A stretch of 64,000 nt of DNA from Notolepis coatsorum. Taxonomy: Eukaryota; Chordata; Actinopteri; Aulopiformes; Paralepididae. How positions within the stretch are numbered: the first letter of the stretch is position 1; every line of letters begins with the position of its first letter. Below the pieces are notes generated by a model. It was not told where the DNA came from, did not search any database, and saw only the letters and a list, made by a program, of their open reading frames with translations. The stretch is from assembly GCA_963971535.1 (NCBI GenBank), contig OZ020589.1, positions 74,265,245 to 74,329,244 on the forward strand. The letters run 5' to 3'. The translations under genes and the position numbers were made by a program. Positions 9,487 through 59,468 of the stretch are shown here, piece by piece.

Positions 9487-9810
9487 CACTGCTGAACTTT
9501 GTGTTCTGTCACTTAATTGAAGGAGTTTGATTGTAATCATTTTGGAAAAACCTGTAGAATAACAGTGTTTCACTGCTGAACGAAGTTATGTCACTTAATT
9601 GAAGGAGTTTGATTGTAATAATTATGGGGAAACCTGTAAAATAACAGTGTTTCACTGCTGAACTTAAGTTATGTCACTTAATTGAAGGTGTTTCATCGTA
9701 AATGTAGGAAAAACCTGTGAAATAACAGTGTTTCACTGCTGAACTTTAAGTTCTGTCACTTAATTGAAGGAGTTTGATTGTAATCATTTTGGAAAAACCT
9801 GTAGAATAAC
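9487..9810 (+). repeat. 82-bp satellite, left part
   Basis: Four units of 81-84 bp each contain CACTGCTGAAC, TGTCACTTAATTGAAGG and ACCTGTAGAATAACAGTG. The array is cut at AATAAC by the DIRS element and continues at 15426. Confidence 0.95.
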
Positions 9811-15245: not shown

Positions 15246-15425
15246 AGGAAGGGTGTTTCATGACCAGAGTCATGATTATATGGGTGGTACCACCATAAGG
15301 GGCGGGGCCCCATACAGGTGGGGTGCATGTGTTTTTGTTCGTGGGAGATACATTAGGTATCACAGGAGATATAGAGTATCTCGTAAGGCTCAGAGCGGGA
15401 CGCGATGCTATATACGAAATATAAC
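15246..15425 (-). repeat. DIRS inverted terminal repeat (5' end of element)
   Basis: The inner part 15246-15402 is the complement of 9852-10011. The outer tip GATGCTATATACGAAATATA differs from the left tip, as expected for DIRS. The element's promoter should lie here, but I see no strong TATA context. Confidence 0.88.
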
Positions 15426-25765: not shown

Positions 25766-25780
25766 GCCGCCCCCTAATTA
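25766..25780 (-). promoter_or_regulatory. Polypurine tract of BEL element 1
   Basis: The minus strand reads TAATTAGGGGGCGGC directly before the LTR TG. The same sequence lies beside the LTR of the second BEL element. It primes plus-strand DNA in this class of element. Confidence 0.75.
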
Positions 25781-25876
25781 GTCGGAACCTAATTAGCAAA
25801 TACATTTTAGGGCACAGATTAATATCAAAGGTCAAGTCAATTTCTCCATAAAGGACTATGGGGAGTTGGAAGTAAC

Positions 25877-28141
25877 CTATAAAGTCGATGGGGTATGGTC
25901 ATCGTCAGGAGAGTCAGGGAACGCAGGAAGCTCTATCAACTTAGCTACTGGTCTGGTATAAGTCCGCCCTTGGACGATGACCTCTGCAGCTCTGACCTTC
26001 CCATCCGAGCCCTTGATTACTCGGCTCACACGGCCGGCTGGCCACGTAGCTCGGGGTAGTGACTGGTCTATGATCATCACGACGGTCCCCACAGTCAGGT
26101 TGTCTCTGTCTTTCACCCATTTCTGGCGGGCTTGAAGGGAGGGTAAGTAGTGTAGGAGGAAGCGGGCCCAAAACTGGTCGGCCAGCACTTGGCTGTGTCT
26201 CCACATTCTCCTTCCACTCATCTCGTCCTGTCTGTACACAGTCTGAGGAAGGGCAGGGTCCAGCCACCCCATCAAGAGGTAGTTTGGGGTGATGGGGTCG
26301 ACGTCAGCTACGTCGCTTGACATATAGCCGAGGGGCTTGGAGTTCAGAACTCCCTCAATCTCGGTGAGGAGTCGACTGTCTGAGGGGACTGGCTTTGCCC
26401 TTATCAGACACTCCCTTTCCTCTGGGAAAGAGTCTCTCTGCGCCCTGTGCAGCACAAGAAGTTCCGCTTCCTTGTAGGCAGCTGCACTGAGGTCTGTGGT
26501 GGGGGGAAGCTCCGGGTGGTGCCATAGGAATGTCCTTTTTTGGGCACTCTTCAGAGTTTGACAGTCGTCTAGGTCTGGGCCCGTCCTGGTTCGCATCCCG
26601 TGGTGTTGAGATAGGCCACTTCTCCTCCGGGAGTCTGAGGAACTCTGGGCCATCACTGTATGAGTTGGGATGGGTGAGGTCAGCTAGGGACATCCCCCGT
26701 GTTATGACATCCGCCGGGTTCTGCTTGGTGTCAACATATCTCCAACATTCCGCTCCTACCAGGTCTTGGATTTCCGATACTCGGACTCCTACGAACACTT
26801 TGTACCGGCAGGAGGCGGACTGGATCCAGGTGATCACGGTCATAGAGTCTGACCATATGATGATCTCACGCACCGGTATGGTGAGTTCATTTTGCACCAT
26901 TTTGGCAAGTTGTGCGCCTACCAGGGCTGCGCAGAGCTCCAGTCGCGGAATCGACTGCTGCTTGCAGGGAGCAATCCTCGAACGGGCCAGGACAAAGGCT
27001 ACGTGGACTTCTCCTCCCTCTTCTCGAGCCCTCAGGTAGGCCACTGATCCGTACGCCACTTCCGAGGCATCGCTGAAGACGTGCAGGTTTATCTGACATG
27101 TCTCCAAGTGCACGGTAGGAGGGAAGTAGCTCCGCGGGATGGCAACCTCGTGGAGTAAGACAAGTTCATCCTCCCACTCTCTCCATGTGGTGGCTAGGTG
27201 CTCGGGTATGGGGTCATCCCAGCCCTGCTCCTTGGCCCACAGGTCTCTCACCAGCATCTTCGCCCGGGTGGTGTAGGGGAGAATGCACCCCATAGGGTCG
27301 TACTGGCTGGCGAGTGTTCGGTACACACTCCGCCGAGTGGTCAGTCTAGTTGTGGACGCCTCCTGGTCCGTCCTCAGAGGTGTGTGCCGGTAGTGAAGCG
27401 AGTCCGTTTTAAAGCGCCAGACGAGACCCAGAGTCATCTCTTGCGCTTTGCCTGGTGTGTGCGCCATCCAGGTCTCGCTGCTAGCGGCCTTCGTCTCTGG
27501 AGGGAGGTGCCTGAGGACTTGAGGGTCGCTACTACTGGCCCACTGTCGGAGGTCGAATCCACCTTTGGCTAGCAAAGCCCGTAGCTTCCTCATAATGCTC
27601 TCTGCTTCTTCTGGCGTGGATACGCTCTGTAGACAGTTGTCCACGTAGAAACATCGTTCAACGCTGTGTCGGACATCATCGTCAGCTCCGGGGTCTTCGG
27701 CCACGTGCTTCTGTAACACGAACGTGGTGCAGCACGGGCTGCAGGTGGTGCCGAAGGGGAGTACCTCCCATTGGTATATCGAGGGTTGTTCGTCGTCGAG
27801 CCTCTCCCTCCACAGAAACCTCAGTAAAGGCTTGTCTTCCTCCATCAGCCGGACTTGTAAGAACATCCCCTTGATGTCGCCGCTGATGGCCACTTTGTCC
27901 TGACGAAAACGTATCAGGACGCCGAGGAGGGAGGGTCCAAGTGTGGGACCGGGCAGGAGTAGGCTATTCAGATTCTGCTGTCCAATCTGATGACTGCAAT
28001 TGAACACAATGCGGTTTTTTCCGTTGTGTGTGACCTTGTGGTGGGGCACGTACCAGGACTCTGTCGTCCCTTCTGCCTCGTGGTCATCGATTTTCTTGAT
28101 GTGGCCGGCCGTTACCAGCTTCTCGATCTCGGCGCGATAGG
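25877..28141 (-). pseudogene. BEL element 1 pol remnant, integrase core deleted
   Basis: RT is open from 28141 with [39 protein letters not shown] and FYVDNCLQS. RNase H has [31 protein letters not shown] and SDSMTVITW. A frameshift lies near 26595. Further on, SDSRLL joins straight to TEIEGVLN at about 26368. The intact relative has about 0.77 kb between these motifs, coding the integrase zinc-binding and catalytic core, so the element could not integrate itself. The C-terminal integrase tail (KWVKDRDNLTVGTVVMI) is kept and ends with TAA at 25877. Confidence 0.88.
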
Positions 28142-42387: not shown

Positions 42388-43084
42388 ATATGTATGGAAC
42401 ATCTGGAAGAAATGCTCATGAAGCAATACAACCATGATTTTAATGAAAAAACATCAGAGGGGAAATTGGAAATGTCAAGGGAGGACATTAAATTCATGAA
42501 GATAATGAGAAGAACAACAGAGTTGAAAGATGGACATTATTACATTGACTTACCTTTCAGAGAAGAGGAACCAGTCTTGCCAAATAACCGCTGTGTTGCA
42601 GAGCAGCGACTTCAAGGCCTGAAGAGGACATTTGAAAAGAACATCAAGTTTAAAGAGGAGTACACCTCATTCATCAATGATATGCTGGTTCAAGGTTATG
42701 CTGAAATTGTACCCATTGAACAGCTGGAACAAGATGAGGGAAAAGTGTGGTACATTCCCCACCATGGAGTACATCACCCCACCAAAGGAAAGCTGAGGGT
42801 TGTATATGACTGTGGAGCCTCATTCAAAGGAACATCTCTGAACTGTCAGCTCTTGCAGGGCCCCGATCTCACCAACACTCTTACACACTAAAAACAGATG
42901 GGTCAATTCTATAACCCAATTTCTTGGTTAATCGTGTTGGGTTAAAATTATGGGTTAATTCTCTGAGCATAACCATTATTTGGGTTATTGAGATTTTATT
43001 TTGACCCAATTTTGACCCAATTTGTGAGTTATAATAATTATGGATCAATTTTCTGAGACATAACCCATGTGTTGGGTCAGAGAG

Positions 43085-43252
43085 CTGGGTGTTTCCGCCG
43101 GGATCTGCAAAGCTACACCCCTCCCCCACTGGGAACTATATGTTCCAGTCAGTCAGACGGTCATGTTCACAGTCAACACGGTCCCACGTTCACAGTCAAC
43201 ACGATCCAACAAACCCTCTTCACGATCACGGAAAAGACTTCACTGACTCAAG
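43085..43252 (+). promoter_or_regulatory. Probable first non-coding exon of the SAM gene in the TIR element
   Basis: It ends GACTCAAG|GTAAGATC at 43252/43253, a strong donor. It contains two copies of GTTCACAGTCAACACG. No ATG-led frame leads into the donor. The next acceptor (TGTTTCAG, 44078) opens the exon with the SAM start codon. Confidence 0.5.
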
Positions 43253-44088
43253 GTAAGATCTCGTTTCGTTAGCACAGTATTTATATCTCAACCCATCCAT
43301 TGTACATATTGCGTCGTGTTAACCATGCACTGTGAACGTTGTGGAACTAAATTAGCTAGCTCTTCACAGCTATCTATCGCGTCATCAGCTAGCTAGCTAT
43401 CCACCGCAAGTTGCAACTTAGCTACTCATTTCTATAATTGGTTCATCTCTAACCTTGTAAAAATATGTGGTAACCTCTATTAATAAATAAGCCACACGAC
43501 ACGACACAACACATAAATCATTACCGTTCAAGCATGCTACCGAAAGTGACCAAGTCTATGAGTATTACAAAGGTTCTGGCTAGTAGCTAGGCCTAGTTAA
43601 CCAGTACTAGTAACGTTACTGTTATTGCAAATTTTACCGTGTTTTGGGTTGTAATGATACCAGATTAACTGGAGATTATCTATAGCTGTGTAACGTTATA
43701 TGATTGATATCTTTATTAACCATATGTGTGTAATAAAGCTGTTGTCCTCTCAATGCGGTGACATAGCTGGTTGGCTAGCTAGCTACATACTGTGATTTAG
43801 AGCCATTTTGCGCCATTTTGAGGTCTACATTTTCCATCATCTCTCTAATGTCCCCCGATTCGGGCATCAATTTACAACATCCTATACTAAATTAAGCAGT
43901 AGACTGCGGAAGCCAGACATGTGGTGAGGCTTTTTACACCTGAATTCAGTGCTAAATATTCTAGGCTGCTATGTCAGCTAGTACTTGGCCTATCGTGCAC
44001 ACGTGGCTGAGTACTTGGGCATGAGGCATTAATTAATTGCAGATGTGTTCATTTCCACATTGCTTTCTTTTGTTTCAGGCCAGTCTTG

Positions 44089-47000
44089 ATGGACAGCTTT
44101 GTCACAGAAAAATTAATTGAGTGGCAATTGCCAGAGCTCACAGACAGTTTTAAAGGTGAGCATTTTTACTTTCTTGACCATGAAAATGTTTCCATGACTA
44201 AGCAGTATAGGGTTTCAACACACATGCACACACATTATTCTGTTCTTCATCTTGGTTCTCATCCTGTTCTTGTTCTGGTCTCTGGTCCTGTGTTGGAGTT
44301 TGCTGCCTGGACTGTAAAAGTCTTTCTTTGTTTTCTGTCTTTTGTCTTTCAGATAAAGATATTGATGAGGAGGCGTTTCAACTTTTAGATGACGAAACAA
44401 TCCGGAACCTCATCCCCAAAATAGGCCCCCGGCTCAAGTTCTCAAAACTTTACAGAGAATTTGTAAGTGATCACTAAGTTAAGAGTTCTAACATATCAAG
44501 GCAGATGGCGTATACATGCTTTAAATGCAAAAGGCTAATTCCTGGTGATGCCAAGTCTCTCTTTTCACATTTACGAGTAGCACACAATATAAACGCTTCA
44601 TCCACTTATATCCAATGTTGTGAGGGAGTTTGTAGCAGAACATTTTCTTTCATTCGGTCTTACAGAAAGCACTTGCAAGGAGAACATAACGACAACCAGG
44701 CCCTGGCCCAGCCACCTAATGTACCAAATCAGGCTGCTAATATTTTCAATGCTGAAGAGCTAGTACTTTCTTGACCATGAAAATGTTTCCATGACTAAGC
44801 AGTATTGTTCAGTAGGGTTTCAACACACATGCATGCACACACAAATTATTCTGTTCTTCATCTTGGTTATCATCCTGTTCTTGTCCTGGTCTCTGGTCCT
44901 GCCAGCCTGGTCCTGTGTTGGAGTTTGCTGCACTGGATGGCACTGAAATTACTGTAAAAGTCTTTCTTTGTTTTCTGTCTTTGTCTTTCAGATCAAGATA
45001 TCGATGAGGAGGCACCACCAGTACCCCCCTCACCAGAACCAGCAGTACCTCCCCTCACCAGAACCAGCAGTACCTCCCCTCACCAGAACCAGCACCTCCC
45101 TTCACCAGAACCAGCAGTACCTCCCCTCACCAGAACCAGCAGTACCTCCCCTCACCAGAACCAGCAGTACCTCCCCTCACCAGAACCACCAGTACCTCCC
45201 CTCACACGAACCACCAGTACCTCCCCTCACCAGAACCAGCAGTACCGCTTTTGGAGTTCGCAAAAGAGGGGTGGAGTTCTAGAGGAAGCAAGGTAAGCAA
45301 AAAAAGCCATATAATGCGCAGCTCCTCCCCCTCAGGGAATGCTACACCCATTTGCTAGGGGTCTGCTGCTTCAGAGAGCCTATCTGCTGCTTCAGAGAGC
45401 CTATCTGCTTCAGAGAGCCTAACTGCTGCTTCAGAGAGCCTAACTGCTGCTTCAGAGAGCCTATCTGCTGCTTCAGAGAGCCTATCTGCTGCTTCAGAGA
45501 GCCTATCTGCTGCTTCAGAGAGCCTAACTGCTGCTTCAGAGAGCCTAACTGCTGCTTCAGAGAGCCTATCTGCTTCAGAGAGCCTAACTGCTGCTTCAGA
45601 GAGCCTAACTGCTGCTTCAGAGAGCCTATCTGCTGCTTCAGAGAGCCTATCTGCTGCTTCAGAGAGCCTATCTGCTTCAGAGAGCTTATCTGCTGCTTCA
45701 GAGAGCCTAACTGCTGCTTCAGAGAGCCTATCTGCTGCTTCAGAGAGCCTATCTGCTGCTTCAGAGAGCCTATCTGCTGTAGAGAGCCTAACTGCTGCTT
45801 CAGAGAGCCTATCTGCTGCTTCAGAGAGCCTATCTGCTGCTTCAGAGAGCCTATCTGCTGCTTCAGAGAGCCTATCTGCCGCTTCAGAGAGCCTATCTGC
45901 TGCTTCAGAGAGCCTAACTGCTGCTTCAGAGAGCCTATCTGCTGCTTCAGAGAGCCTAACTGCTGCTTCAGAGAGCCTATCTGCTGCTTCAGAGAGCCTA
46001 TCTGCTGCTTCAGAGAGCCTATCTGCTCCAGAGAGCTTATCTGCTGCTTCAGAGAGCCTAACTGCTGCTTCAGAGAGCCTATCTGCTGCTTCAGAGAGCC
46101 TATCTGCTGCTTCAGAGAGCCTATCTGCTGCTTCAGAGAGCCTCTCTGCTGTAGAGAGCCTAACTGCTGCTTCAGAGAGCCTATCTGCTGCTTCAGAGAG
46201 CCTAACTGCTGCTTCAGAGAGCCTAACTGCTGCTTCAGAGAGCCTAACTGCTGCTTCAGAGAGCCTATCTGCTGCTTCAGAGAGCCTATCTGCTGCTTCA
46301 GAGAGCCTATCTGCTTCAGAGAGCTTATCTGCTGCTTCAGAGAGCCTAACTGCTGCTTCAGAGAGCCTATCTGCTGCTTCAGAGAGCCTATCTGCTGCTT
46401 CAGAGAGCCTATCTGCTGTAGAGAGCCTAACTGCTGCTTCAGAGAGCCTATCTGCTGCTTCAGAGAGCCTATCTGCTGCTTCAGAGAGCCTATCTGCCGC
46501 TTCAGAGAGCCTATCTGCTGCTTCAGAGAGCCTAACTGCTGCTTCAGAGAGCCTATCTGCTGCTTCAGAGAGCCTATCTGCTTCAGAGAGCCTAACTGCT
46601 GCTTCAGAGAGCCTATCTGCTGCTTCAGAGAGCCTAACTGCTGCTTCAGAGAGCCTAACTGCTGCTTCAGAGAGCCTATCTGCTGCTTCAGAGAGCCTAT
46701 CTGCTTCAGAGAGCCTAACTGCTGCTTCAGAGAGCCTAACTTCTGCTTCAGAGAGCCTATCTGCTGCTTCAGAGAGCCTAACTGCTGCTTCAGAGAGCCT
46801 ATCTGCTGCTTCAGAGAGCCTATCTGCTGCTTCAGAGAGCCTATCTGCTCCAGAGAGCTTATCTGCTGCTTCAGAGAGCCTAACTGCTGCTTCAGAGAGC
46901 CTATCTGCTGCTTCAGAGAGCCTATCTGCTGCTTCAGAGAGCCTATCTGCTGCTTCAGAGAGCCTATCTGCTGCTTCAGAGAGCCTCTCTGCTGTAGAGA

Positions 47001-50000
47001 GCCTAACTGCTGCTTCAGAGAGCCTATCTGCTGCTTCAGAGAGCCTATCTGCTGCTTCAGAGAGCCTAACTGCTGCTTCAGAGAGCCTAACTGCTTCAGA
47101 GAGCCTATCTGCTGCTTCAGAGAGCCTATCTGCTGCTTCAGAGAGCCTATCTGCTGCTTCAGAGAGCATATCCGCTGCTTCAGAGAGCCTATCTGCTGCT
47201 TCAGAGAGCTTATCTGCTCCAGAGAGCCTATCTGCTGCTTCAGAGAGCCTAACTGCTGCTTCAGAGAGCCTATCTGCTGCTTCAGAGAGCCTATCTGCTG
47301 CTTCAGAGAGCCTAACTGCTGCTTCAGAGAGCCTATCTGCTGCTTCAGAGAGCCTATCTGCTGCTTCAGAGAGCCTATCTGCTGCTTCAGAGAGCCTAAC
47401 TGCTGCTTCAGAGAGCCTAACTGCTGCTTCAGAGAGCCTATCTGCTTCAGAGAGCCTAACTGCTGCTTCAGAGAGCCTATCTGCTGCTTCAGAGAGCCTA
47501 TCTGCTGCTTCAGAGAGCCTATCTGCTGCTTCAGAGAGCTTATCTGCTTCAGAGAGCCTATCTGCTTGTAACTGAGGGGTACAATTCCCTGACTGTATTG
47601 ATAAGTATGGTATCATTAAACCACTACCGCTTGATGTACTTTAACTTCTGGCCATACAGTACACGATATCTAAGTATGATGAACACTTTCCCACATATGA
47701 AATCAGGTCCACACAAATATAACAGTCGAAGGTTTAATATAGCAAAAGGTATATACAACATTCACTTAATTACATTTATGATTTGAATGCACTTGTAAGG
47801 CAAATGAGTATTCGTAGGCAAATCAACACTGAATGTCCAATCTCTGGTTACGCAGGAAGAAAGTATACAACCTGGTTCTTTAGGGAAACTATAGCGATGG
47901 TACTTAAGGATTATGGCGGGATACTAAAGGGGTCCTGCTGGTTGTAAGTCAGTAAGGGGGGGGGGGGTTTGGAGAGCCGTCAGCTGCATCCCATCTGGCC
48001 AACGATTCCTGGGGAGAATTCAGGTACAGAAAACAGTGCCCGCAGGATCTTGATCCACAGATGAATACACTTGGGCCCTCTTGTAGACGGTAGCTGTAGG
48101 TCCACAACGAAGGAGAAGCGAGGCGGCCTCGGTCTGGGTTGAGCGCCGTCTCACCTGGGCTCCTCTCGGGGGTAATTCCAACACTCACTGGCGTTGGCTG
48201 TTATCCGCTCCACAAATCAAAGCACCCAAAGCAAATAGATATTCCATGCCGTATAGGCTCAGCAGTCGTCCGGGTAGGTAATCCAATGTGCAGGTCCACT
48301 CGTCCTCGCCCAGAACTCCTCGGATGAAAGCACCACGCGTGGTCTGCCCAGCCTGGTTAAGACTCTAGATAACGCGAGGAACGATGGGGGTGCTGCTCAC
48401 TTTAGAACTTTAACCGAACGATGCACCATACATAATAGACTATTATTACTTAATAGAAATACGTCCCACTCGACGGTACAGTGCCAAACTATGACAATTC
48501 AGCTATGAATTTACACGAGGTCTCAATGCCTATTCTGGGGCCAAAAATAGGCCATACTGCACCACACGTGGGTCGTGGGTGAGGCTTCACGTCTGTTACT
48601 AGGTTGGAGGGTAAAGGACTAATGGACTAAAAGAGAAAGTTCTACTTTACTTGCGCCCTATTTATATGCACGGTGAACAAATAGTACCATTCGTATTTCG
48701 GTAGCCGTATTCCTATGCGGAACCGGGGCTAGTTGGGACATGTTCGTGGGCACTATTGAACTTGACTCAAGGGGCCTGTCTGCTGGCGCCAGGTTCTTGT
48801 CCAATGAGAGAATGAACTATTATGGGCTGTAGTAGACTAAAGGGATATTCAGTGTATATGTACAAAGAATATACAAGGGATATCAAACGATATACAAATA
48901 CTATTAAATATATATCCATAAATAAATATATATATTCGGTTTAATCTGATCCTTCACAACAGCCGCCCCCTAATTAGTCCCACCTAATTAGCTAAGCAGA
49001 GACAGATTAACCGCACTGTCTACCACTCAAGGTCCGCTGTAAGGGTCAGTCAACTCACAAAGTCATGGGGTCATGGTCGTCATCGATAGTGTCTGGGAGT
49101 CTTGGCAGTTCTATTAGCCTCGCCACGGGTCGTGTGTAAGTTCGCCCTTGGACGAGCACTTCAGCTGCTCGGACCTTGCCATCGGCACCGGTGATCACTT
49201 TGCTTACGCGGCCAGCCGGCCACATAGCTCTGGGTAGTGACTGGTCGATAATCATGACGACTGTTCCTTCTGTCAAATTGTCTCTCTCTTTTACCCACTT
49301 CTGGCGGGTCTGTAGAGACGGTAGATAGTGGAGTAGGAAGCTATTCCAAAACTTGTCAGCCAGTACTTGACTGTACCTCCACATTCTTCGGCCGTTCGCT
49401 TCTTCAGGCCTGTACATTGTCTGGGGTAGCGCGGGGTCCAGCCGCCCCATCAAGAGTGTGTTGGGGGTGACTGGGTCGACATCTGCTACATCACTTGAGA
49501 CGTAACCGAGGGGCTTGGAGTTCAATACTCCCTCGATCTCCGTGAGGACTGTCATTAGGACTTCTTCCGCCACAGTCTGGGCCCCAAGCACGGCGTACAG
49601 GGCTGTCTTTATAGAACGTACTTCTCATTCCCAGGTTCCACCGAAGTGGGGTGCGTTCGGGGGGTTAAACTGGAAGTCAATCTGGGATGGAGCGAGGTGG
49701 GTCTTAAGTTCTGGGCCCATAGCTTGGAAGCTCTCTCTCAGCTCTCTTTCTCCGCCTTTGAAGTTTGTCCCGTGATCAGACAACAATGTAGACGGTTTTC
49801 CTTTCCGCGATGTGAATCTTCGGAAGGCCATAAGGAATGAGTCTGTGCTCATGGTTGGAAGGAGTTCGATATGTATCGCTCTGGTGGTCATGCATTTGAA
49901 TACAATACCCCACCGCTTCTCGGTTCCTCTTCCTTTCTTTATATACAACGGGCCAAAACAGTCCATGCCTGTGGAGTGAAAGGGCTTGTCGCCGAGTCGG

Positions 50001-53000
50001 AGGCGACAGGGAGGTAGGTCAGCCATCCGGGGTATGCTGGGCTGCGCGCGCCACTTTCGGCAGTCTAGACAGGTTCGCTGGAAGCGTCGCACTGCTTCTC
50101 TCCCTTGAAGTATCCAATAGCGACGTCTGATCTCCGCGAAGACTCTCTCTGCTCCTGCGTGGTGCACATCCTCGTCGTATTTCTTTATGATCAGCTCTGT
50201 GACCTTGTGTCGGCTGTTCAAGACTATCGGGTACTTAACGTCATCCGGTAGGTCGGGGGCTCTCCGCAGACGACCACCCACTCTGATGAGATTATGGGCG
50301 TCACTCTCGGGTGCCAGGTGGAGCAGTCTGCTGTCTGATGGGACGGGCTTTCCTCCCTGTAGACAGTCTAGCTCATCGGGGAACGAGTCTCTCTGGGCTC
50401 GTTGTAGTAGAAGAAGTTCTGCTTCTTCGTAGTCAGCTGCTGAAATGTCAGTGGTGGGCTGAATCTCTGGGTGGTGCCACAGGAATGTCTTTATCTGCGC
50501 ACTCTGTAGGGTGAGGCAATCATCTATGTTGGGGGCTGTGGAGGCGACTGTGCTCAATCCACAGAACATAGGTTTCTTGTTTTCAGCCTCCTCTTTACTC
50601 GCCTCCCGTGGGGTGGGCGTAGGCCACTCTTCTTCCGGGAGCTTGAGGAACTCTGGTCCGTCACTGTAGATGTTGTGACGGGTGAGGTCATCTAGGGACA
50701 TTCCCCGGGTGATGACGTCAGCTGGGTTGTGTTTGGTGTCCACATACCGCCAGCTCGCTGCTTCTGTTAACTCTTGAATCTCTGTGACTCTGACTCCCAC
50801 GAAGACCTTGTATCTGCATGAATCAGACTTGATCCATGTGAGTACTGTCGTAGAGTCTGACCACAAGATTGTTCTTTGCACCGGGATGGTGAGTTCACGT
50901 TGGATTAACGTGGCTAGATGCGCTCCTGCTAGGGCTGCGCAGAGCTCTAGACGCGGGATAGATTGTTGCTTTCGTGGGGCTATTCTTGAGCGAGCCAGGA
51001 TGAAAGCGGTGTGTATCTCTCCTCCCTTCTCTTGGGCACGCAAGTAGGCCACAGATCCATAGGCTACTTCGGAGGCGTCGCTGAAGACGTGTAGATCCAT
51101 CTTGCATGTCTCTGGCCTCACTGTGGGTGGGAAGTAGCTGCGGCGTATGTTGACGCCTGGGAGTGAGCGGAGTTCCGTCTCCCACTCTCTCCATGTGGAG
51201 GCAAGGTGTGCGGGTATTGGGTCGTCCCAGCCCTGGTCCTTGTCCCATAGTGCTCGTACAATCATCTTTGCCCTGGTGGTGTAAGGTAGAATACATCCCA
51301 ACGGGTCATATTGTCTGGCGAGTGTTCTGTACACACTCCGTCTGGTGGTCGGTATCGCCGTCGACCTTCCCTGCTCCGTGGTCAGGGGTTTGTGTCTATA
51401 GTGGAGCGAGTCTGTTTTGAAGCGCCAGACTAGTCCTAGTGTCATTTCTTGGGCTTCTCCTGGGATGGTCGCCATCCAGGTCTCGCTACTGGCTGCCTTG
51501 TCCGCGGGGGAGAGGCTGCGCAATACTTGCGGGTCGCTGCTGGCCCACTGCCTGAGATCAAAGCCGCCTTTGATCAGGGAGGCGCGTAGCTTGAGTAGGA
51601 GAGCCTCGGCTTCTTCTTGGGTCGAAACGCTTTGTAAACAGTTGTCCACGTAGAAACTGTTCTTCACACTGTGTCGGACCTCTTCATCTGCTGCTGGGTC
51701 CTCTGCGACGTGTTTCTGCAGTGCAAATGTAGCACAGCACGGGCTGCATGTGGTTCCGAAGGGGAGGACTTCCCATTGGTAGATGGCTGGGTGCTCATCT
51801 CCGATCCTCTCTCTCCATAGGAACCGCAGTAGGGGCTTATCCTCCTCCACTAGTCTCACCTGCAGGAACATCCCTTTGATATCCCCGCTGATAGCCACCT
51901 TGTCCTGGCGGAAGCGTAGTAGCACGCCTAGTAGAGAGGGGCCGAGTGTGGGGCCGGGCAAGAGCTCTTTATTCAGATTCTGGGATCCGATCTGGTAGCT
52001 GCAGTTAAACACAATGCGATCCTTGCCGTTGTGGTGGACCTTGTGGTGCGGCACGTACCATGATTCGGTCGTCTGATCGGCCTCTTTAATGTCAATCTTC
52101 ATTACGTGTCTCGCTGTGATTAGCTTCTCAATCTCAGCGCGGTACACACTCTCTTGAGCGGGGTCTTTGGCTAGGCGCCGCTCTGTGTTCAATAGATACC
52201 GCTCCGTAGCTTCTTTCGTGGCGTGAAAGGTGGGCATTCCCTCTCGCCTCAGGAGTGGAGTTGCGTATCTCATCACTCCGCCGACTGTGACTCTCTTTGT
52301 CCCTTGCTCGAGGAGGTTTATGGCGTAAATGTCTTCTTTAGAACGAATGTCTTTCTTTTCGTTCTTAAAGGGCATTGTCTCTAGTGTCCATAGCCTCTCG
52401 ACATGCTGCAGGAGAGTGGTGTCTTCTTCTGTCACTCTGGAGTGGAGGCAGCTAGTGGCTGCTGTTCGGTTGAGAGATTTAGCGAGGGGGCCTTGTAGTG
52501 TCCATCCTAGGCGGGTCTCGACTGCTGCAGGACAGCCTCTGGGTCCTGTATGGACCCGGTCTATCGGGACTATGAGGTCTGCATGGTCGGAGCCTATCAG
52601 CAGGGTCGGGGTGGCGCCGTCTATGAGCGGGATAGGTAGTTGACGCAGGTGCACATATTTATCCATCAGCTTGGCGATGGGGTAGGTGTACTGTGATAGT
52701 CCTATTTCTTGGCTGGTGAAAGCATTTGTAATCCTATACCGTCTCTCTGGCTGCCCGCTTGCTGCGATAGCGAAGGAGACATTCTCGCCTTTTATCGTCT
52801 TTAAATCTCTTCTTATTGTCCGAATCGTCATCTGGTTCTCGCTCCCCCGCAGTCCCAGCTGGGCCGCAGCGGATGCAAGGAGAAGGGTCTTCTCTGACCC
52901 GTCATCAAGGACGGCGTAAGTGTCCATGACTTTATCTTGGTGGCTCAATGTTACACGGACTACCTTTAAGAGCACCTGGGCGCCGCTGCTGCTGGCGGGG

Positions 53001-56000
53001 TCAATGTACATGACACTTGCCTTTGTGCTGCTCGATGGTGCAGGTGCAGGCTTTCTTCTGTTACTGTCGTGTAGGACATCTAGGTGGGCTCCGTCACACC
53101 GACTGCACCTCTTCTTTAGGCGGCACTCGGCTGCCATGTGACTGCGCGCACATCGGTAACAGCGCCTGTTGGACTTTATCCATTGACTCACTTCTTCTGC
53201 ATTCATCTTCTTGAACAGGTCACATTGTGACAGCCAGTGTTCCTTCTCGCAGTACGGGCACACCATCTTCCACTTCTCTTTTCTCGAGGGGGTACTGTGG
53301 TTCTTACTGCTCGGTACTGATTCTGATTGGTGCATGACAGTCACTGATCTTCTTCCATCGTTTACTCTCCTAGGTCCCTCTCTGGAGCTTGGTGTGCTCC
53401 GCACGAATGTATCCAAGCGTAGGCTGCTGACTTCTCTCGTCAGGAAGTCGGCTAAATCGAGGAGGGATGGTTCGGGACCGTTAGGATCACGGTGGTCTCT
53501 TTGCCGCCTAAAGCGCTCTTGTCTGGCGGGCGGCAGCTTCTCTAAAATCCTCTCAACGTTAGAGTTGGCGTATAGCTCGTGCATACCCTTTTCTTGTTGC
53601 GCTCCCAGCATCCCTACCAGGGACTGCACTTTTATAGACAGGTCGTCTAGTGAGCGATTGTCTGTTGCTGGGGGTAGGCGGTCAATATGCCTTATCTCTT
53701 GGATTACGTAATCCCATATACGTCCATATCTCTGGTCCAGCGCTGCTAGAGCCGCGGTGTATGGGGTCGTAGAGGTGGCATAGGCTAGCGCTATATTGTG
53801 CGCTCGGGGTACTTTCAGGTGCTTCAGTAATATTGCATACTTGTGGCGTTCGTCAACGACATCCACCATCATTGTCTCTAAGCACATCCGGAGCTCCGTG
53901 TACTGTGCTCGATTCTCATGGGTGAAGTCTGGAAACGTCGGTGTGCCAATGTATGACGCCGTGGATGGCTGGCACATCGGTGAGCGTTGGGAGAGAGGCC
54001 TCCTAGGCGAGTCTCCTCTTGCGCCTCTCTGTGGGCTGGTACCGGCAGGGTACCATGGCCCGCTGGTCCAGGTGCTGTTCCTCGGGGCTGGTCGTGCGTC
54101 ATGCTCACCCGTGAATAGAGTCGGGGGTCTGTAGCGCAGCGCCGCGGGGGTATAGCCTGGGCTGTACTGGACCTCCTGGTCCGGTGGAGTACTGTGCTGT
54201 CGTCGGGCTTGGTTCTCCTCCTCTCCCTCTTCTTCTTCTGTCAGGTCCTCTAGATCCTGTAGTCGTTTATTTAGCCTCTCCGCAGTGTATGCTGCTCCTT
54301 CCTTGTAGCTGGGTCTCGCTTGGACCGGTCGGGGAAGGGGGTCTGCGGGGGGTATAGGCTCTCTCTGGTGGTCAAGTTCAGGGTCGCTTGGTCGGTTAGG
54401 GGATGCTGCCCTTGACTGTTGTCTCGACGAGGCCCTTGAACCCCTGGCGGAGGGAGAGGGTGTTGCCCTGGTGATCAGCTGCTCCATTAGCTGCGCTTGT
54501 AGTCTGTCGCGCTCGGCTTGTAGTCTGTCGTGCTCGGCTTCGCGCTGGATGAGAGCGATGTCGCGCTCTGCTTCTCTTTGGGCACCGTCAGCGGCGCGCT
54601 GGGTGTCGGACCGGTCTCTTGCCATATTCTCTTCCGTCTGAAGGCGTCTCATCTCCAGGCGTATGTGCTCTTCTTCGCTCCGTTGCTGTGTGTGGAGTCG
54701 ATCGCGTTCACCCTGAAGTCGATCGTGTTCACCCTGGAGTCGATCGCGTTCGGTAGAGGCTGTCAGGCTGACGAGGAACGCCTGTGACAGCATCCTCTCC
54801 GCCTCGCTGGGGGAAGACGCTTGTAGAGGTGAGCCGCTCCTGGCTGTCCTCGTTGGGGAGTCCTGGAGCTCTATCTCCTCGGCGCTCTCCTCATCTTGTT
54901 CCGTGCAGGGTTCCACCTCTGGAGGGTTGTCTTCCTCCCGGAGCTGGTCGGGGACTACTTCTTCGGTATTGGCGGGGGGTAAAGGCATGTCTGTTCCCTC
55001 CTGGTCCCCACCGTGAGCTTGGTCAGTTACATTAGAACCCACTAGGGCCTCTGTGGTCGGGGTAACCTGGTCGTTAAGGTCAGACATAATTTTACTTTCT
55101 ACTTTTACCGCGTTTACCGTCTGTAGAAGGCTAGGTAGTTGACTGACAGCGTAATCCTCTAAGTACTGAGGTGTCTGTCGTCTGCGCCGCGGGCGTTCTA
55201 CGTTAGGAGGACCGTTTCGTGGAGTGTTCATCATAGGCCATTTCAATATTAATAACACTATATTAATATTACACTAGTTACCCTCCGGCTCGAAGGACCA
55301 ATTGTAACTGAGGGGTACAATTCCCTGACTGTATTGATAAGTATGGTATCATTAAACCACTACCGCTTGATGTACTTTAACTTCTGGCCATACAGTACAC
55401 GATATCTAAGTATGATGAACACTTTCCCACATATGAAATCAGGTCCACACAAATATAACAGTCGAAGGTTTAATATAGCAAAAGGTATATACAACATTCA
55501 CTTAATTACATTTATGATTTGAATGCACTTGTAAGGCAAATGAGTATTCGTAGGCAAATCAACACTGAATGTCCAATCTCTGGTTACGCAGGAAGCAAGT
55601 ATACAACCTGGTTCTTTAGGGAAACTATAGCGATGGTACTTAAGGATTATGGCGGGATACTAAAGGGGTCCTGCTGGTTGTAAGTCAGTAAGGGGGGGGG
55701 GGGTTTGGAGAGCCGTCAGCTGCATCCCATCTGGCCAACGATTCCTGGGGAGAATTCAGGTACAGAAAACAGTGCCCGCAGGATCTTGATCCACAGATGA
55801 ATACACTTGGGCCCTCTTGTAGACGGTAGCTGTAGGTCCACAACGAAGGAGAAGCGAGGCGGCCTCGGTCTGGGTTGAGCGCCGTCTCACCTGGGCTCCT
55901 CTCGGGGGTAATTCCAACACTCACTGGCGTTGGCTGTTATCCGCTCCACAAATCAAAGCACCCAAAGCAAATAGATATTCCATGCCGTATAGGCTCAGCA

Positions 56001-57475
56001 GTCGTCCGGGTAGGTAATCCAATGTGCACGTCCACTCGTCCTCGCCCAGAACTCCTCGGATGAAAGCACCACGCGTGGTCTGCCCAGCCTGGTTAAGACT
56101 CTAGATAACGCGAGGAACGATGGGGGTGCTGCTCACTTTAGAACTTTAACCGAACGATGCACCATACATAATAGACTATTATTACTTAATAGAAATACGT
56201 CCCACTCGACGGTACAGTGCCAAACTATGACAATTCAGCTATGAATTTACACGAGGTCTCAATGCCTATTCTGGGGCCAAAAATAGGCCATACTGCACCA
56301 CACGTGGGTCGTGGGTGAGGCTTCACGTCTGTTACTAGGTTGGAGGGTAAAGGACTAATGGACTAAAAGAGAAAGTTCTACTTTACTTGCGCCCTATTTA
56401 TATGCATGGTGAACAAATAGTACCATTCGTATTTCGGTAGCCGTATTCCTACGCGGAACCGGGGCTAGTTGGGACATGTTCGTCGGCACTATTGAACTTG
56501 ACTCAAGGGGCCTGTCTGCTGGCGCCAGGTTCTTGTCCAATGAGAGAATGAACTATTATGGGCTGTAGTAGACTAAAGGGATATTCAGTGTATATGTACA
56601 AAGAATATACAAGGGATATCAAACGATATACAAATACTATTAAATATATATCCATAAATAAATATATATATTCGGTTTAATCTGATCCTTCACAACACTG
56701 CTGCTTCAGAGAGCCTATCTGCTGCTTGAGCCTATCTGCTGCTTCAGAGAGCCTAACTGCTGCTTCAGAGAGCCTAACTGCTTCAGAGAGCATATCTGCT
56801 GCTTCAGGGAGCCTATCTGCTGCTTCAGAGAGCCTATAGGTTGCACCCACAGAGTTTGGTTGCACCACCAAGCCAATGTCTGACAACCAAAGTCCCCCAG
56901 GCCCCCATAACCTCTATTTAAACTCGAAAAGGCATTGAGGTTTCCCTCATTTACAAAGACGAGTTAAAACCACTGTTTTGAGCACTCCAAAATGTCATTG
57001 CACATTCCATTGGCATGAGATTTTTTTTTTTATTTAATTTAGCTCCCTTGTATAGTTGGTATAAACCTGTTATCTTGCTTATGATTTGCTGTCAACCCAA
57101 GATTCACCTGTATTTAACATTCTTTCTTTGCTTATGTGCTTGTTTTAGGTTGGGACAAATATGGTGGAGTACCTCCAGCAGGCAAGACCCTCTCCCTCGG
57201 TTTTGGTGCTGGGAGAACCACACACATGTTGTGCTCAGGCATTCGTGATCTATGCAGGTCGGGCACACCCTGAAAGCACAATGCTCGGGGCAGTTGATAC
57301 GTGTTTTAAAGCATTTTATGTATTTGACATAAAGTACCCCAGGCAGTGTGTTCATGCATGGGAGTTTCTCCAGCACGTTATATATAATATTGAGGGACCA
57401 GAGTCCAAGCATGTAGCATTCTTAAGGACAGCCGTACGTAACGCAAAACTTACAAATGAGGAGGAGGTAGAATAG
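44089..57475 (+). CDS. SAM-domain protein gene inside the TIR element (gene 2)
   Basis: The proposed exons are 44079-44155 (ATG at 44089, [20 protein letters not shown]), 44353-44462 ([20 protein letters not shown], then [15 protein letters not shown]) and 57149-57475. The first two together form a SAM domain. The last codes [29 protein letters not shown] and [10 protein letters not shown] before TAG. Sites are GT-AG and phases fit: 1 nt carried at the first junction, phase 0 at the second. The last exon matches the C-terminal block of fish SAMD3-like proteins, and gene 1 has the equivalent ALNIDYP. The long central domain of gene 1 is absent, so this is a short form or a deletion product. 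The last intron (12.7 kb) holds the minisatellite and BEL element. Function is unknown. Confidence 0.6.
44166..45015 (+). repeat. Tandem duplication of intron plus exon start
   Basis: The intron before SAM exon 2 (from CTTTCTTGACCATGAAAATG at 44172 to the acceptor and GATATTGATGAGGAGGC) is repeated from 44767 to about 45013. The second copy keeps the acceptor and the DIDEEA codons but then diverges into Pro-rich coding repeats. The C2H2 frame lies between the copies. Confidence 0.85.
44505..44774 (+). CDS. C2H2-like zinc-finger frame, 89 codons
   Basis: It begins right after an acceptor-like AAGGCAG with [11 protein letters not shown]. Two Cys/His groups follow: CFKC with HLRVAH, and CCEGVC with HLQGEH. 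The spacing suits C2H2-type fingers, and similar N-termini occur on uncharacterised teleost proteins. It stops at 44774 (ELVLS). It sits between SAM exon 2 and its duplicated copy, so it may be an alternative first coding exon or a separate small gene. Confidence 0.55.
   Translation: MAYTCFKCKRLIPGDAKSLFSHLRVAHNINASSTYIQCCEGVCSRTFSFIRSYRKHLQGEHNDNQALAQPPNVPNQAANIFNAEELVLS
44992..45292 (+). CDS. Possible alternative Pro-rich exon of gene 2
   Basis: The exon follows TTTCAG, starts in the same phase as SAM exon 2 and reads [20 protein letters not shown], then [10 protein letters not shown] repeats. It stays open for about 100 codons to a GTAAGC donor at 45293. It is built of a 25-bp tandem unit with CCAGAACCAGCAGTACC; three units (75 bp) restore frame. 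It ends 2 nt into a codon, so it would not splice in frame to 57149 and would need another partner exon. Confidence 0.45.
45350..47566 (+). repeat. 21-bp minisatellite, about 105 units
   Basis: The unit is GCTTCAGAGAGCCTATCTGCT, with C/A variants (CTAACT) and short units that lack multiples of 3 bp. Five of six frames stay open over most of its length, giving frames of about 740-750 codons on both strands. No start context or splice support is seen, so I treat it as non-coding. It is cut by BEL element 2 and resumes at 56698. Confidence 0.92.
47567..48961 (-). repeat. 3' LTR of BEL element 2
   Basis: 1395 bp. On the minus strand a TATAAATAGGGCGC promoter-like box lies at about 48656-48670. 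It has a G-run of 12 at about 47956-47967. Confidence 0.93.
48962..48976 (-). promoter_or_regulatory. Polypurine tract of BEL element 2
   Basis: The minus strand reads TAATTAGGGGGCGGC ending at the LTR TG, identical to the tract of BEL element 1. Confidence 0.8.
49055..49624 (-). pseudogene. BEL element 2 integrase C-terminal part after the stop
   Basis: It continues in the same frame after the TGA at 49625-49627: [41 protein letters not shown], then [18 protein letters not shown] and [17 protein letters not shown]. It ends TAA at 49055. This is the non-catalytic C-terminal part of BEL integrase, which binds DNA. Confidence 0.9.
49625..55234 (-). CDS. BEL element 2 Gag-protease-RT-RNase H-integrase
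   Basis: The first ATG is at 55234, and about 1,870 codons are open. In order: a coiled-coil Gag (repeated [12 protein letters not shown] words); the BEL Gag core with [20 protein letters not shown]; Cys-His knuckles ([39 protein letters not shown]); an aspartic protease with [12 protein letters not shown]; and RT with [36 protein letters not shown] and the active site FYVDNCLQS. RNase H then follows ([34 protein letters not shown]). Integrase comes last, with [34 protein letters not shown] and PHFGGTWE. The frame stops with TGA directly after that catalytic Glu. Confidence 0.93.
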   Translation of the reverse strand: MMNTPRNGPPNVERPRRRRQTPQYLEDYAVSQLPSLLQTVNAVKVESKIMSDLNDQVTPTTEALVGSNVTDQAHGGDQEGTDMPLPPANTEEVVPDQLREEDNPPEVEPCTEQDEESAEEIELQDSPTRTARSGSPLQASSPSEAERMLSQAFLVSLTASTERDRLQGEHDRLQGERDRLHTQQRSEEEHIRLEMRRLQTEENMARDRSDTQRAADGAQREAERDIALIQREAEHDRLQAERDRLQAQLMEQLITRATPSPSARGSRASSRQQSRAASPNRPSDPELDHQREPIPPADPLPRPVQARPSYKEGAAYTAERLNKRLQDLEDLTEEEEGEEENQARRQHSTPPDQEVQYSPGYTPAALRYRPPTLFTGEHDARPAPRNSTWTSGPWYPAGTSPQRGARGDSPRRPLSQRSPMCQPSTASYIGTPTFPDFTHENRAQYTELRMCLETMMVDVVDERHKYAILLKHLKVPRAHNIALAYATSTTPYTAALAALDQRYGRIWDYVIQEIRHIDRLPPATDNRSLDDLSIKVQSLVGMLGAQQEKGMHELYANSNVERILEKLPPARQERFRRQRDHRDPNGPEPSLLDLADFLTREVSSLRLDTFVRSTPSSREGPRRVNDGRRSVTVMHQSESVPSSKNHSTPSRKEKWKMVCPYCEKEHWLSQCDLFKKMNAEEVSQWIKSNRRCYRCARSHMAAECRLKKRCSRCDGAHLDVLHDSNRRKPAPAPSSSTKASVMYIDPASSSGAQVLLKVVRVTLSHQDKVMDTYAVLDDGSEKTLLLASAAAQLGLRGSENQMTIRTIRRDLKTIKGENVSFAIAASGQPERRYRITNAFTSQEIGLSQYTYPIAKLMDKYVHLRQLPIPLIDGATPTLLIGSDHADLIVPIDRVHTGPRGCPAAVETRLGWTLQGPLAKSLNRTAATSCLHSRVTEEDTTLLQHVERLWTLETMPFKNEKKDIRSKEDIYAINLLEQGTKRVTVGGVMRYATPLLRREGMPTFHATKEATERYLLNTERRLAKDPAQESVYRAEIEKLITARHVMKIDIKEADQTTESWYVPHHKVHHNGKDRIVFNCSYQIGSQNLNKELLPGPTLGPSLLGVLLRFRQDKVAISGDIKGMFLQVRLVEEDKPLLRFLWRERIGDEHPAIYQWEVLPFGTTCSPCCATFALQKHVAEDPAADEEVRHSVKNSFYVDNCLQSVSTQEEAEALLLKLRASLIKGGFDLRQWASSDPQVLRSLSPADKAASSETWMATIPGEAQEMTLGLVWRFKTDSLHYRHKPLTTEQGRSTAIPTTRRSVYRTLARQYDPLGCILPYTTRAKMIVRALWDKDQGWDDPIPAHLASTWREWETELRSLPGVNIRRSYFPPTVRPETCKMDLHVFSDASEVAYGSVAYLRAQEKGGEIHTAFILARSRIAPRKQQSIPRLELCAALAGAHLATLIQRELTIPVQRTILWSDSTTVLTWIKSDSCRYKVFVGVRVTEIQELTEAASWRYVDTKHNPADVITRGMSLDDLTRHNIYSDGPEFLKLPEEEWPTPTPREASKEEAENKKPMFCGLSTVASTAPNIDDCLTLQSAQIKTFLWHHPEIQPTTDISAADYEEAELLLLQRAQRDSFPDELDCLQGGKPVPSDSRLLHLAPESDAHNLIRVGGRLRRAPDLPDDVKYPIVLNSRHKVTELIIKKYDEDVHHAGAERVFAEIRRRYWILQGREAVRRFQRTCLDCRKWRAQPSIPRMADLPPCRLRLGDKPFHSTGMDCFGPLYIKKGRGTEKRWGIVFKCMTTRAIHIELLPTMSTDSFLMAFRRFTSRKGKPSTLLSDHGTNFKGGERELRESFQAMGPELKTHLAPSQIDFQFNPPNAPHFGGTWE
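55284..55300 (-). promoter_or_regulatory. Primer binding site, tRNA-Tyr
   Basis: The plus strand TCCGGCTCGAAGGACCA equals the last 14 nt of vertebrate tRNA-Tyr plus CCA (from memory). Its complement lies 2 nt inside the 5' LTR, where minus-strand DNA synthesis would start. Confidence 0.85.
55303..56697 (-). repeat. 5' LTR of BEL element 2
   Basis: 1395 bp with the same TATAAATAGGG box (minus strand, about 56392-56405). Differences from the other LTR seen by eye include A/C at 47860/55596 and G/C near 48293/56029. Confidence 0.93.
56698..56836 (+). repeat. 21-bp minisatellite, right remnant
   Basis: About seven units of the same repeat, more diverged than the main array, lie beyond the BEL insertion. 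Confidence 0.9.
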
Positions 57476-57605
57476 GTGAAGTAGCAGGAGGGAAGGTGGA
57501 GGAGAGGAGGAGGAGGAGTATAAGGAGAGGAGGTGGCGTAGTGAGGAGGTGAAGTAGGAGGAGGGAAGGTGGGGGAAGAGATGGAGGAGGAGGGAGATGG
57601 GTAGA
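57455..57605 (+). repeat. Purine-rich GGAGGA tract
   Basis: An almost pure A/G stretch overlaps the gene 2 stop codon and its 3' side. It could form triplex or slipped structures; this is not proven. Confidence 0.75.
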
Positions 57606-57636
57606 CGCTAAGTCCCGTATTTCTATATGTATATAT

Positions 57637-58106
57637 TAGTGCTGTCAATCGATTAAAATATTTAACACGATTAATCGCATGATTGTCCATAGTTAACTTG
57701 CGATTAATCACAAATTAATCAAATTTTTTTCTTTTTTTCTACCTTTTTTCTACGGATCTTTTTCAAGTTCCAAGTTTTAATACTCTTATCAACATGCGAG
57801 TCAACAAATGCTTTCGTTATGCAGCCATTTAACACAAAAGGATGACCCTCATGCATTGCAAATTTGCATCAAATTCAAAACAGAGTGATGCACAAAATAA
57901 CTTAAAAGAAAGAAAATTCATTAAAACAATGAATAAAGTGTACATGAAATAATAGGGGAAAGAAAACGTTAGGAACTTGTTACATTCACCCACACAAGGG
58001 CTGAGTAATCACACACACCCCCCCTCTCTCTCTCACACACACTCTCCCAGCTCAGTTTCTCTCTTGCCCCTTCCCTTCTCTCTCACCCCCCTCTCTCTCT
58101 ATATAT

Positions 58107-58161
<55 letters not shown>

Positions 58162-58318
58162 CAGAAACAAACATAGTATCAATGAGAGCATCAATAATAC
58201 ACCTGAGTATAGTCTAGTAAAAAAAAATCTTAAAAGTTAATCGTGAGTTAAAAAAAATAGTGGTGTTAATAGAATCAGGCGATAACGTGTTAATACCGCG
58301 TTAACTTTGACAGCCTTA
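57637..58318. mobile_element. AT-rich TIR element, copy 3 of 3, with (CA)n
   Basis: AGTGCTGTCAATCGATTAAA at the left and CGTTAACTTTGACAGCC at the right are the same termini as at 29045 and 33299, but the interior differs. A CT-rich block and a (CA)n run (58108-58159) lie inside. There is no transposase. Confidence 0.8.
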
Positions 58319-58659
58319 GTATATATGTGTTTTGATCTATCAATATCTGGGGGAGTGTTCCAACAGGGCAGTAAAGCAGTACAAAACCATACCGATATGT
58401 ATTATTTATTATTTATTATTTAAACAGGAAATCAGTTTGACATGATGTGTTTCATGGGCACTATAGCAGCACAAGCACTTTTTGATGTCCACACGCTGTG
58501 ACATGTATGCAACAAGTGTAATAAATTTTGAAGTTAAATGTATTCTACGCCTTGGTCTGTTCTTTTCATTGATTTCAGCACATTTAGACTGTTATACCTT
58601 TCAATCAAGCATCTGTGCCAACCTAATGTAGTGTACTAACTATAGCAGTTGTGTTAATA
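58319..58659 (+). other. Possible 3' end of gene 2
   Basis: AT-rich and non-coding. AATAAATTTTGAAG near 58520 could be a polyadenylation signal for the SAM gene in the TIR element. No other feature was recognised. Confidence 0.35.
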
Positions 58660-58811
58660 GGCCCTTTTCACAGCAGCCATCTTGACACAGCAGGGTAAAC
58701 CTACATCCTGTGAACCAGACTGACACATGTGTAACTAATCATGTTGCTGTGTCCATCTGTTGGTCAATCGTTGTCAATCTGGCTCACAAGATGGCTGCTG
58801 TGAATAGGGTC
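58660..58811. mobile_element. Short inverted-repeat MITE
   Basis: GGCCCTTTTCACAGCAGCCA followed by TCTTG at the left and a near-perfect complement at the right (two mismatches) enclose 100 bp of unrelated sequence. Confidence 0.7.
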
Positions 58812-58844
58812 TATTTGACCCTTTTGATGTAACCCAAGATTCAG

Positions 58845-59200
58845 TCAAAGCAACTATTTTGACCCTTAAAATGGGTCGTTTGTATAACCCAATACGGGGT
58901 CAAATCAACTAGGAGGTTGGGTTATTTTGACCCTTAAAATGGGTCGTTTGTATAACCCAATATGGGGTCAAATCAACTTAGAAGTTGGGTTATTTTGACC
59001 CTTAAAATGGGTTGTTGGTATAACCCAATATGGGGTCAAATCAACTTGGAAGTTGGGTTATTTTGACCCTTAAAATGGGTCGTTGGTATAACCCAATATG
59101 GGGTCAAATCAACTTGGAGGTTGGGTTATTTTTACCCTTAAAATGGAAAAGTAAAAGTAAAAGTAAAAGTATTAAAAGTATTCGTTTATTTGACCCAAGT
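58845..59200 (+). repeat. Subterminal 65-bp repeats of the TIR element
   Basis: Four to five tandem units contain GGGTTATTTTGACCCTTAAA and ATAACCCAATATGGGGTCAA. Looser forms of the same words occur at the left end (42898-43090). Such repeats are typical transposase binding sites in large DNA transposons. A short GTAAAA tandem run lies at 59147-59170. Confidence 0.8.
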
Positions 59201-59468
59201 TATGGGTCAAATTAAATAACCAATAATAATGGGTCAAATTAACCCACACACTGGTCGGGCCCTTTTTGACCAGTGAATTGGGTCAAAAATAACCCAAATT
59301 GGGTCAAATTTGACCAATCTGTTTTTAGTGTGTATGGGGGTCCTCATTCGCTTCAGGAAAGAGCCTGTCGCAATCATGGCTGACATCCAGGCCATGTTTC
59401 ATCAGGTACGGGTGCCTGATAAACATGTGAACTTTCTTCGCTTTCTTTGGTGGCCTCAGGGCAACACT

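Follow-up and report, generated by a model that had tools for sequence, protein, structure and literature searches.

The element in the window

The DNA analysed here, referred to as the window, is a stretch of 64,000 nucleotides from the fish Notolepis coatsorum (GenBank assembly GCA_963971535.1, contig OZ020589.1, positions 74,265,245 to 74,329,244 of the forward strand), and it contains at 42884-59332 a mobile element with terminal inverted repeats that carries exons of a SAM (sterile alpha motif)-type gene. Each end of the element is formed by the 16-bp sequence CACACTAAAAACAGAT, found exactly at 42884-42899 on the forward strand and, in the opposite orientation, at 59317-59332 on the reverse strand; both were assigned as terminal inverted repeats from this exact match and from their recurrence across the genome. 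The dinucleotide TA precedes the left end (42882-42883) and follows the right end (59333-59334), as a target-site duplication. Next to the left terminus lies a zone of subterminal TGACCC/GGGTCA and AACCCA/TGGGTT repeats (42900-43103, delimited by motif count), and next to the right terminus a second such zone (58816-59316) that includes a 68-bp tandem repeat at 58855-59146. There are four occurrences of TGACCC/GGGTCA within 220 bp of the left end and 14 within 520 bp of the right end, against a single one in the other 6.6 kb of the element if a nested long terminal repeat (LTR) retrotransposon is excluded, corresponding to densities of 18.2, 26.9 and 0.2 per kb, respectively.

When the element and one TA are taken out, an open frame is restored across the junction (...GPDLTNTL/MGVLIRF...). 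A Pfam search with the two flank pieces gave no match, while in single comparisons with the nested BEL element both aligned to its reverse transcriptase, the left flank up to residue 323 (E 2e-14) and the right flank from residue 324 (E 2e-13). The flanks therefore adjoin each other on a BEL reverse transcriptase, and the identification of the interrupted frame as that of a BEL element is correct. The 204-nt joined flank was compared with the genome from which the window comes (G000, 3.42 Gb), in which the other genome-wide searches were also made: all 40 scored matches, from 223 candidates, span bases 1-204 at 99% identity. The existence of many uninterrupted copies with a single TA shows that the insertion in the window was exact. 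A preliminary description of this locus had noted the matching ends, the TA duplication, the subterminal repeats and the precise interruption of a BEL frame, and had proposed a search for empty sites; each of these points is borne out.

The SAM gene is represented in the window by exons 2, 3 and 11 and a putative exon 1, all on the forward strand. A putative non-coding exon 1 is placed at 43200-43252, although only its donor at 43253 was located and the start at 43200 is a placeholder. Exon 2 (44079-44155, coding from an ATG at 44089) and exon 3 (44353-44462, encoding the end of the SAM-like domain) were recognised by their splice signals and, for exon 3, by weak domain matches, and the terminal exon, exon 11 (57149-57475, 108 codons and a stop), by comparison of exons among copies. 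The preliminary description had proposed a spliced SAM gene with a likely non-coding first exon: exons 2 and 3 stand as described, exon 1 is plausible from the sequence, and the terminal exon had been missed.

Between exons 3 and 11 are found codons 1-87 of a transposase, with a C2H2 finger (44505-44765, forward strand), recognised by comparison with the full-length transposase described below, the remainder being absent from this copy; a duplicate of SAM intron 2 with the beginning of exon 3 (44764-45013, forward strand), which by self-comparison is 80% identical to 44167-44374; a 25-bp minisatellite (45014-45246); and a 21-bp minisatellite whose left (45362-47566) and right (56698-56837) parts are separated by a BEL/Pao LTR retrotransposon at 47567-56697 on the reverse strand. 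This 9.1-kb retrotransposon, recognised from its LTRs (99.6% identical over 1396 bp), a CTGCT duplication inside the minisatellite (47562-47566 and 56698-56702) and Pfam matches, is a later insertion and lies outside the SAM element proper. It is young, and one stop interrupts its main frame. The interval 42884-59332 had originally been presented as one element, the nested insertion having been missed; the SAM element without the retrotransposon measures 7313 bp.

A family of elements with the same termini

The 16-bp terminus occurs 557 times in the genome (284 + 273), against 1 + 0 for a reversed-pattern control, and its recurrence is above chance. Of the first 100 sites listed, 80 can be grouped into 40 convergent pairs spanning 6.0-31.3 kb, the shortest of 6014 bp; there is no adjacent outward-facing pair within 40 kb, and two adjacent couples share the same orientation. 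The 30 pairs of up to 12.7 kb were fetched as whole elements, the ten longest being left out, and 27 of the 30 are flanked by an identical dinucleotide, which is TA in 20, CA in five and TG in two. Over its left 1190 bp, the window copy shares 95.1-99.4% identity with 27 others, L013, L033 and L035 having been omitted from this comparison. SAM exons 2 and 3 were matched in 28 of the 30 elements (exon 2 partially in L022 and L024), the exceptions being L013, with neither exon, and L035, with exon 2 only.

These elements differ in what they retain of the transposase. Half of them (15) are of the window type, which lack the transposase body and retain codons 1-87 of the gene at most, and in these SAM exons 4-10 were also undetected. 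Six carry the transposase body in the orientation of the SAM gene, and in five of the six (L039/40, L041/42, L043/44, L045/46 and L047/48) every SAM exon and every part of the transposase were matched, four having a break or stop. In seven others (L020, L021, L023, L025, L026, L031 and L033) the catalytic block is inverted, invariably together with the exon 11 stretch; since this inversion is common to seven copies, the rearranged form must itself have been amplified. L013 and L035 are odd remnants. Having lost the body of the transposase together with SAM exons 4-10 and gained a minisatellite, the window copy belongs to this family as a non-autonomous deletion derivative. A search of viral contigs and phages found no relative.

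The transposase of full-length copies

The full-length copy L039/L040 (C4:30633523-30644621, 11,099 bp) is flanked by TA on either side, its two ends agree at 22 of the first 23 bases, and it encodes an intact transposase of 826 aa with an N-terminal C2H2 finger. Likewise, L022 has an 836-codon open frame (826 from the first Met) whose beginning is the C2H2 frame of the window; the latter is identical to the transposase (P0001) at 85 of 87 residues before the two diverge. The C2H2-like frame reported in the preliminary description is thus present, although it is the start of a transposase and not a frame of its own, and the statement that there is no transposase holds for the window and other deleted copies but not for their full-length relatives, which are the transposase-coding elements with the same termini that had been sought.

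A genome-wide search with the transposase gave at least 63 matches (55 scored of 2517 candidates), of which 18, distributed over 10 contigs, are 99-100% identical and extend from residue 1 to residue 826 in a stop-free frame of 836 codons. The presence of intact, near-identical copies on 10 contigs points to recent spread. The best Pfam match of the protein is to Transposase_21, the tnp2 domain of CACTA elements (residues 303-426, E 6e-4), and adjoins the first aspartates of a series of candidate catalytic and metal-binding motifs, D300-302, D355, C414-x2-C417, H619/620-H624 and E644, which have the order D-D-C(2)C-H(3-4)H-E. No Tc1/mariner or PIF/Harbinger-ISL2EU DDE domain was matched by Pfam up to E 10, and a search of the PDB gave no match. 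When the genome was searched with PF02992 itself (150 of 253 candidates scored), a single match was listed, L049 (C6:153135334-153135705), which, judged by eye, is apparently a separate transposase of CACTA type.

The ATG of the transposase directly follows TTCTAAC...AG, a sequence reminiscent of a branch point followed by an acceptor, and its stop is followed by AATAAA. The exon 3 donor is 42 nt from the transposase start in the window and 35 nt in L039, a distance too short for exon 3 to be spliced to the transposase, which makes exon 1 a plausible splice partner.

The SAM-type gene

In L039/L040 the SAM gene has ten coding exons with GT-AG introns and consistent phases, and encodes 505 aa. 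In the full-length element it runs from close to the left end in the direction of the right subterminal repeats, with the transposase open reading frame lying in intron 3 on the same strand. Searched against the PDB, the whole 505-aa protein gave no match, and the SAM-like domain gave weak matches up to E 1, of which four out of five were to SAM-domain proteins (an identification that for three of the four is our presumption) and one was to a Trp repressor. The domain is here called SAM-like because these matches are weak and those in Pfam fall below the cut-off. A possibly fused or retro-copied form of the gene was observed at C7:188750702-188755031, where a copy of the transposase is followed by SAM residues 59-111 and 392-505, each listed with a 463-codon open frame.

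Coupling of the two genes in two families

The 55 merged transposase loci were compared with the matches listed for the SAM terminal exon (85 scored of 2022 candidates): in 33 of them the exon lies downstream on the same strand, at a distance of 1.5-18 kb, where 0.08 would be expected by chance, and no other arrangement of the two was seen among the matches listed.

A second transposase family was revealed by the sequence of a fish C2H2 'uncharacterised' protein; this and a fish 'SAMD3-like' sequence served as search probes only. The C2H2 probe matches the transposase described above at 42.5% identity over 439 aa (E 2e-113), and the SAMD3-like probe matches the window terminal exon weakly (19%, E 0.005, one comparison). 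The second family comprises at least 95 matches (95 scored of 2027 candidates), with 46-47% identity to the probe and over half of them in 860-codon open frames. Many of the 95 (one being C4:66522374-66523672) have identical scores and are very young, and one, at C6:109096609, sits in a 2545-codon open frame. Within the 0.9 kb upstream of one copy, L051, there is a homologue of the window's terminal exon (E 9e-11; z 15; 0 of 1000 shuffles). A genome-wide search with this exon (150 scored matches of 748 candidates) placed it upstream and on the same strand in 76 of the 95 listed transposases, in 57 of them at exactly 849 bp, with 0.25 expected; no other arrangement was found among the 95. The gene order differs between the families, the SAM-type gene preceding the transposase in the second and enclosing it within an intron in the first, but the pairing is the same. 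That both types of gene are coupled in two diverged families is the main reason for regarding the SAM gene as a gene of the transposon and not as cargo.

Two further observations concern SAMD3-like sequences. The SAMD3-like probe also found a more remote multi-copy gene, L050 (1-3001), whose 360-aa product has no Pfam match and an N-terminus, which we take to be PB1-like, that is unlike the SAM region of the window family. Its similarity to the 505-aa protein is weak, with E 0.16 by BLASTP, 1e-4 by phmmer (single target) and a probability of 7% by hhalign; its last exon scored z 9 against the window exon (0 of 1000 shuffles) and z 1.2 against the second-family exon (136 of 1000). At C1:6855601-8046939, ten SAMD3-like-related exon matches extend across 1.2 Mb with a spacing that is mostly about 135 kb, and may represent a large segmental array.

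Elsewhere in the window, a BEL-like sequence at 25745-28139 is about 73% identical to parts of 48941-52144 in the nested retrotransposon, and a satellite with periods of 247, 329 and 494 bp occupies 15421-17866, with a second patch about 6 kb away at 9459-9810.

Interpretation and proposed mechanism

The best explanation of these results, to which we assign a probability of about 0.88, is that the family is a two-gene cut-and-paste transposon of CMC type (broadly CACTA-like), about 11 kb at full length, with the transposase and the SAM-type gene both its own. At least in this genome, a SAM gene family that resembles expanded host genes is carried and copied by a transposon. The preliminary description was right to see a mobile gene-bearing element with terminal inverted repeats and many copies, but mere carriage does not describe it well: with the transposase in its intron, and a second family coupled in the same way, the SAM gene looks like an integral, core gene of the transposon and not a passenger.

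Several observations weigh against this explanation. The Transposase_21 match scores 19.5 bits, below the curated Pfam cut-off of 28.6; an implausible NCBIfam match to the same 826-aa protein scores alike (E 6.5e-4); and at E 0.001 no copy of this transposase was among the matches to PF02992 in the genome (150 of 253 candidates scored). On these grounds the Transposase_21 profile match decides nothing by itself. The SAM_1 match in the window reaches 17.6 bits against a cut-off of 23, and SAM matches lie below the cut-off throughout. The ratio of non-synonymous to synonymous polymorphism (pN/pS) ranges by exon from 0.09 to 1.8, is based on few changes and is undefined for two exons, so that purifying selection is not demonstrated, the copies being too alike. 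The flanking dinucleotides differ in three of the 30 whole elements; 22 of the 55 transposase loci, and 19 of the 95 in the second family, have no partner exon among the matches listed; and the second family is known here from its genes. Finally, all the evidence is at the level of DNA sequence.

In the mechanism that we propose, the transposase would cut at the CACAC ends and join them at YR dinucleotides (TA, CA or TG). The SAM gene and the transposase would share a promoter and first exon and be separated by splicing, giving two products of one promoter in parallel with Spm and SmTRC1. The SAM protein might then assist by assembling on the subterminal repeats, as TnpA does in Spm. A SAM-like domain that is possibly self-assembling, together with dense subterminal repeats at both ends, suggests such a bridging role, which is offered tentatively and at rather less than even odds, the likeness to TnpA being one of role and not of sequence comparison. 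Deletion copies such as that of the window, and those with the inverted block, must be moved in trans by transposase made elsewhere.

One alternative is compatible with this transposon model and concerns the deletion derivatives. Exon 3 ends and exon 11 begins in phase 0, so that exons 2, 3 and 11 would be joined in frame into a 167-aa remainder, and the three are complete, with their splice signals, in the window and in 11 of the 15 deletion copies; such a product might be a transposition repressor under selection, which would explain why the derivative is common. This is unlikely, as pN/pS for exon 11 over 16 copies is 0.83, giving no sign of purifying selection, and intactness is expected anyway in copies so young. 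A poorer prospect is that the element recently captured a host SAM gene, as gene-bearing or Pack-type elements do, and that this gene is cargo without a part in transposition. The retention of SAM exons 2 and 3 in 28 of 30 copies, when 15 have lost the transposase body, could be read in that way, as could the fact that a role for the SAM protein in transposition is inferential. Capture is nevertheless improbable in view of a SAM gene that spans the element and holds the transposase within an intron, of a diverged family that pairs the homologous exon with a transposase of its own in 76 of 95 listed matches, and of the 15 copies without a transposase body, in which exons 4-10 are undetected as well, as would be seen when an element loses parts of its own genes by deletion.

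The TA duplication, seen in 20 of the 30 elements, might instead suggest a Tc1/mariner or PIF/Harbinger-ISL2EU element. There is very little to recommend this: seven of the 27 matching duplications are CA (five) or TG (two), and not the strict TA of Tc1/mariner; neither domain was matched in the 826-aa protein; and the order of its motifs is CMCT-like. The preliminary description had also allowed that these termini might surround SAM exons at no other locus, or might belong to two independent short miniature inverted-repeat transposable elements flanking a host gene. SAM exons lie between the termini in 28 of 30 whole elements, and the second idea, for which the identical ends and TA flanks would speak, can be dismissed, because among the first 100 sites the convergent pairs all measure at least 6014 bp and neighbouring sites less than 40 kb apart never face outward, 27 of the 30 elements share their 2-bp flanks, and the entire unit is absent from all 40 scored copies of the uninterrupted insertion site.

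If the two-gene transposon holds true in other species, many fish gene models annotated as 'SAMD3-like' or as uncharacterised C2H2 proteins are transposon genes, which would alter counts of gene-family expansion as well as expression studies in which such genes are taken for host genes. An animal element of CACTA type would gain a defined second protein with a testable role, and the intact, near-identical copies make the system testable in cells. The widest form of the proposal is an animal CMC-type lineage, of superfamily or subclass rank, in which a C2H2 transposase is obligatorily paired with a SAMD3-type protein nucleating on the subterminal repeats, such that the SAMD3-like families of fish are mostly transposon genes; to this we would give an even chance.

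Comparison with known transposons

Maize En/Spm resembles the present element in its subterminal repeats and CAC ends, and differs in having full CACTA ends. Its two proteins, TnpA and TnpD, are produced from one transcription unit (PMC1636069). In the portion of the literature covered by titles and abstract openings, with Repbase and most subscription journals outside its scope, no recognisable SAM protein is reported for a CMC-type transposon, although SAMD3 or a SAM domain is mentioned once in papers such as PMC7037442, PMC11258905, PMC6929470 and PMC11760641. CACTA elements in general make a 3-bp duplication (PMC4158355, from the portion consulted), whereas here it is of 2 bp; nor does the transposase match Transposase_21 (PF02992) above the cut-off, as is canonical for CACTA/EnSpm.

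The closest animal parallel is SmTRC1 of Schistosoma, which according to the available part of its description (PMC1636069) likewise has a transposase of Transposase_21 type and a 2-bp duplication, in 7 of 14 copies. Its several transcripts are spliced and it also encodes a second, shorter protein, a layout comparable to the two-gene one deduced here from DNA; no similarity was found between its short proteins and plant TNPA. SmTRC1 differs in that its ends begin with CCC, its length is 4.5 kb, and no SAM protein is described for it in that part of the text.

The CMCT clade, as characterised in the accessible portion of PMC12730594, has in common C(2)C and H(3-4)H motifs between the second D and the E, CA..TG ends and a 2-5 bp duplication. 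The present transposase appears to have the first of these, as assigned by motif order in P0001; the termini are CACAC...GTGTG; and the duplication is 2 bp in 27 of 30 elements. With these three traits, and without the 3-bp duplication, the element is placed in the broad CMCT clade and not in CACTA proper, a placement made by shared traits. The paper has no occurrence of 'sterile alpha', and the CMCT families that it treats carry TET/JBP genes in fungi, where the present element has a SAM-type gene. The clade includes fungal ESTA, which has the same motifs, CA..TG ends and a 2-5 bp duplication and, like most copies of the element described here, uses TA (PMC12730594).

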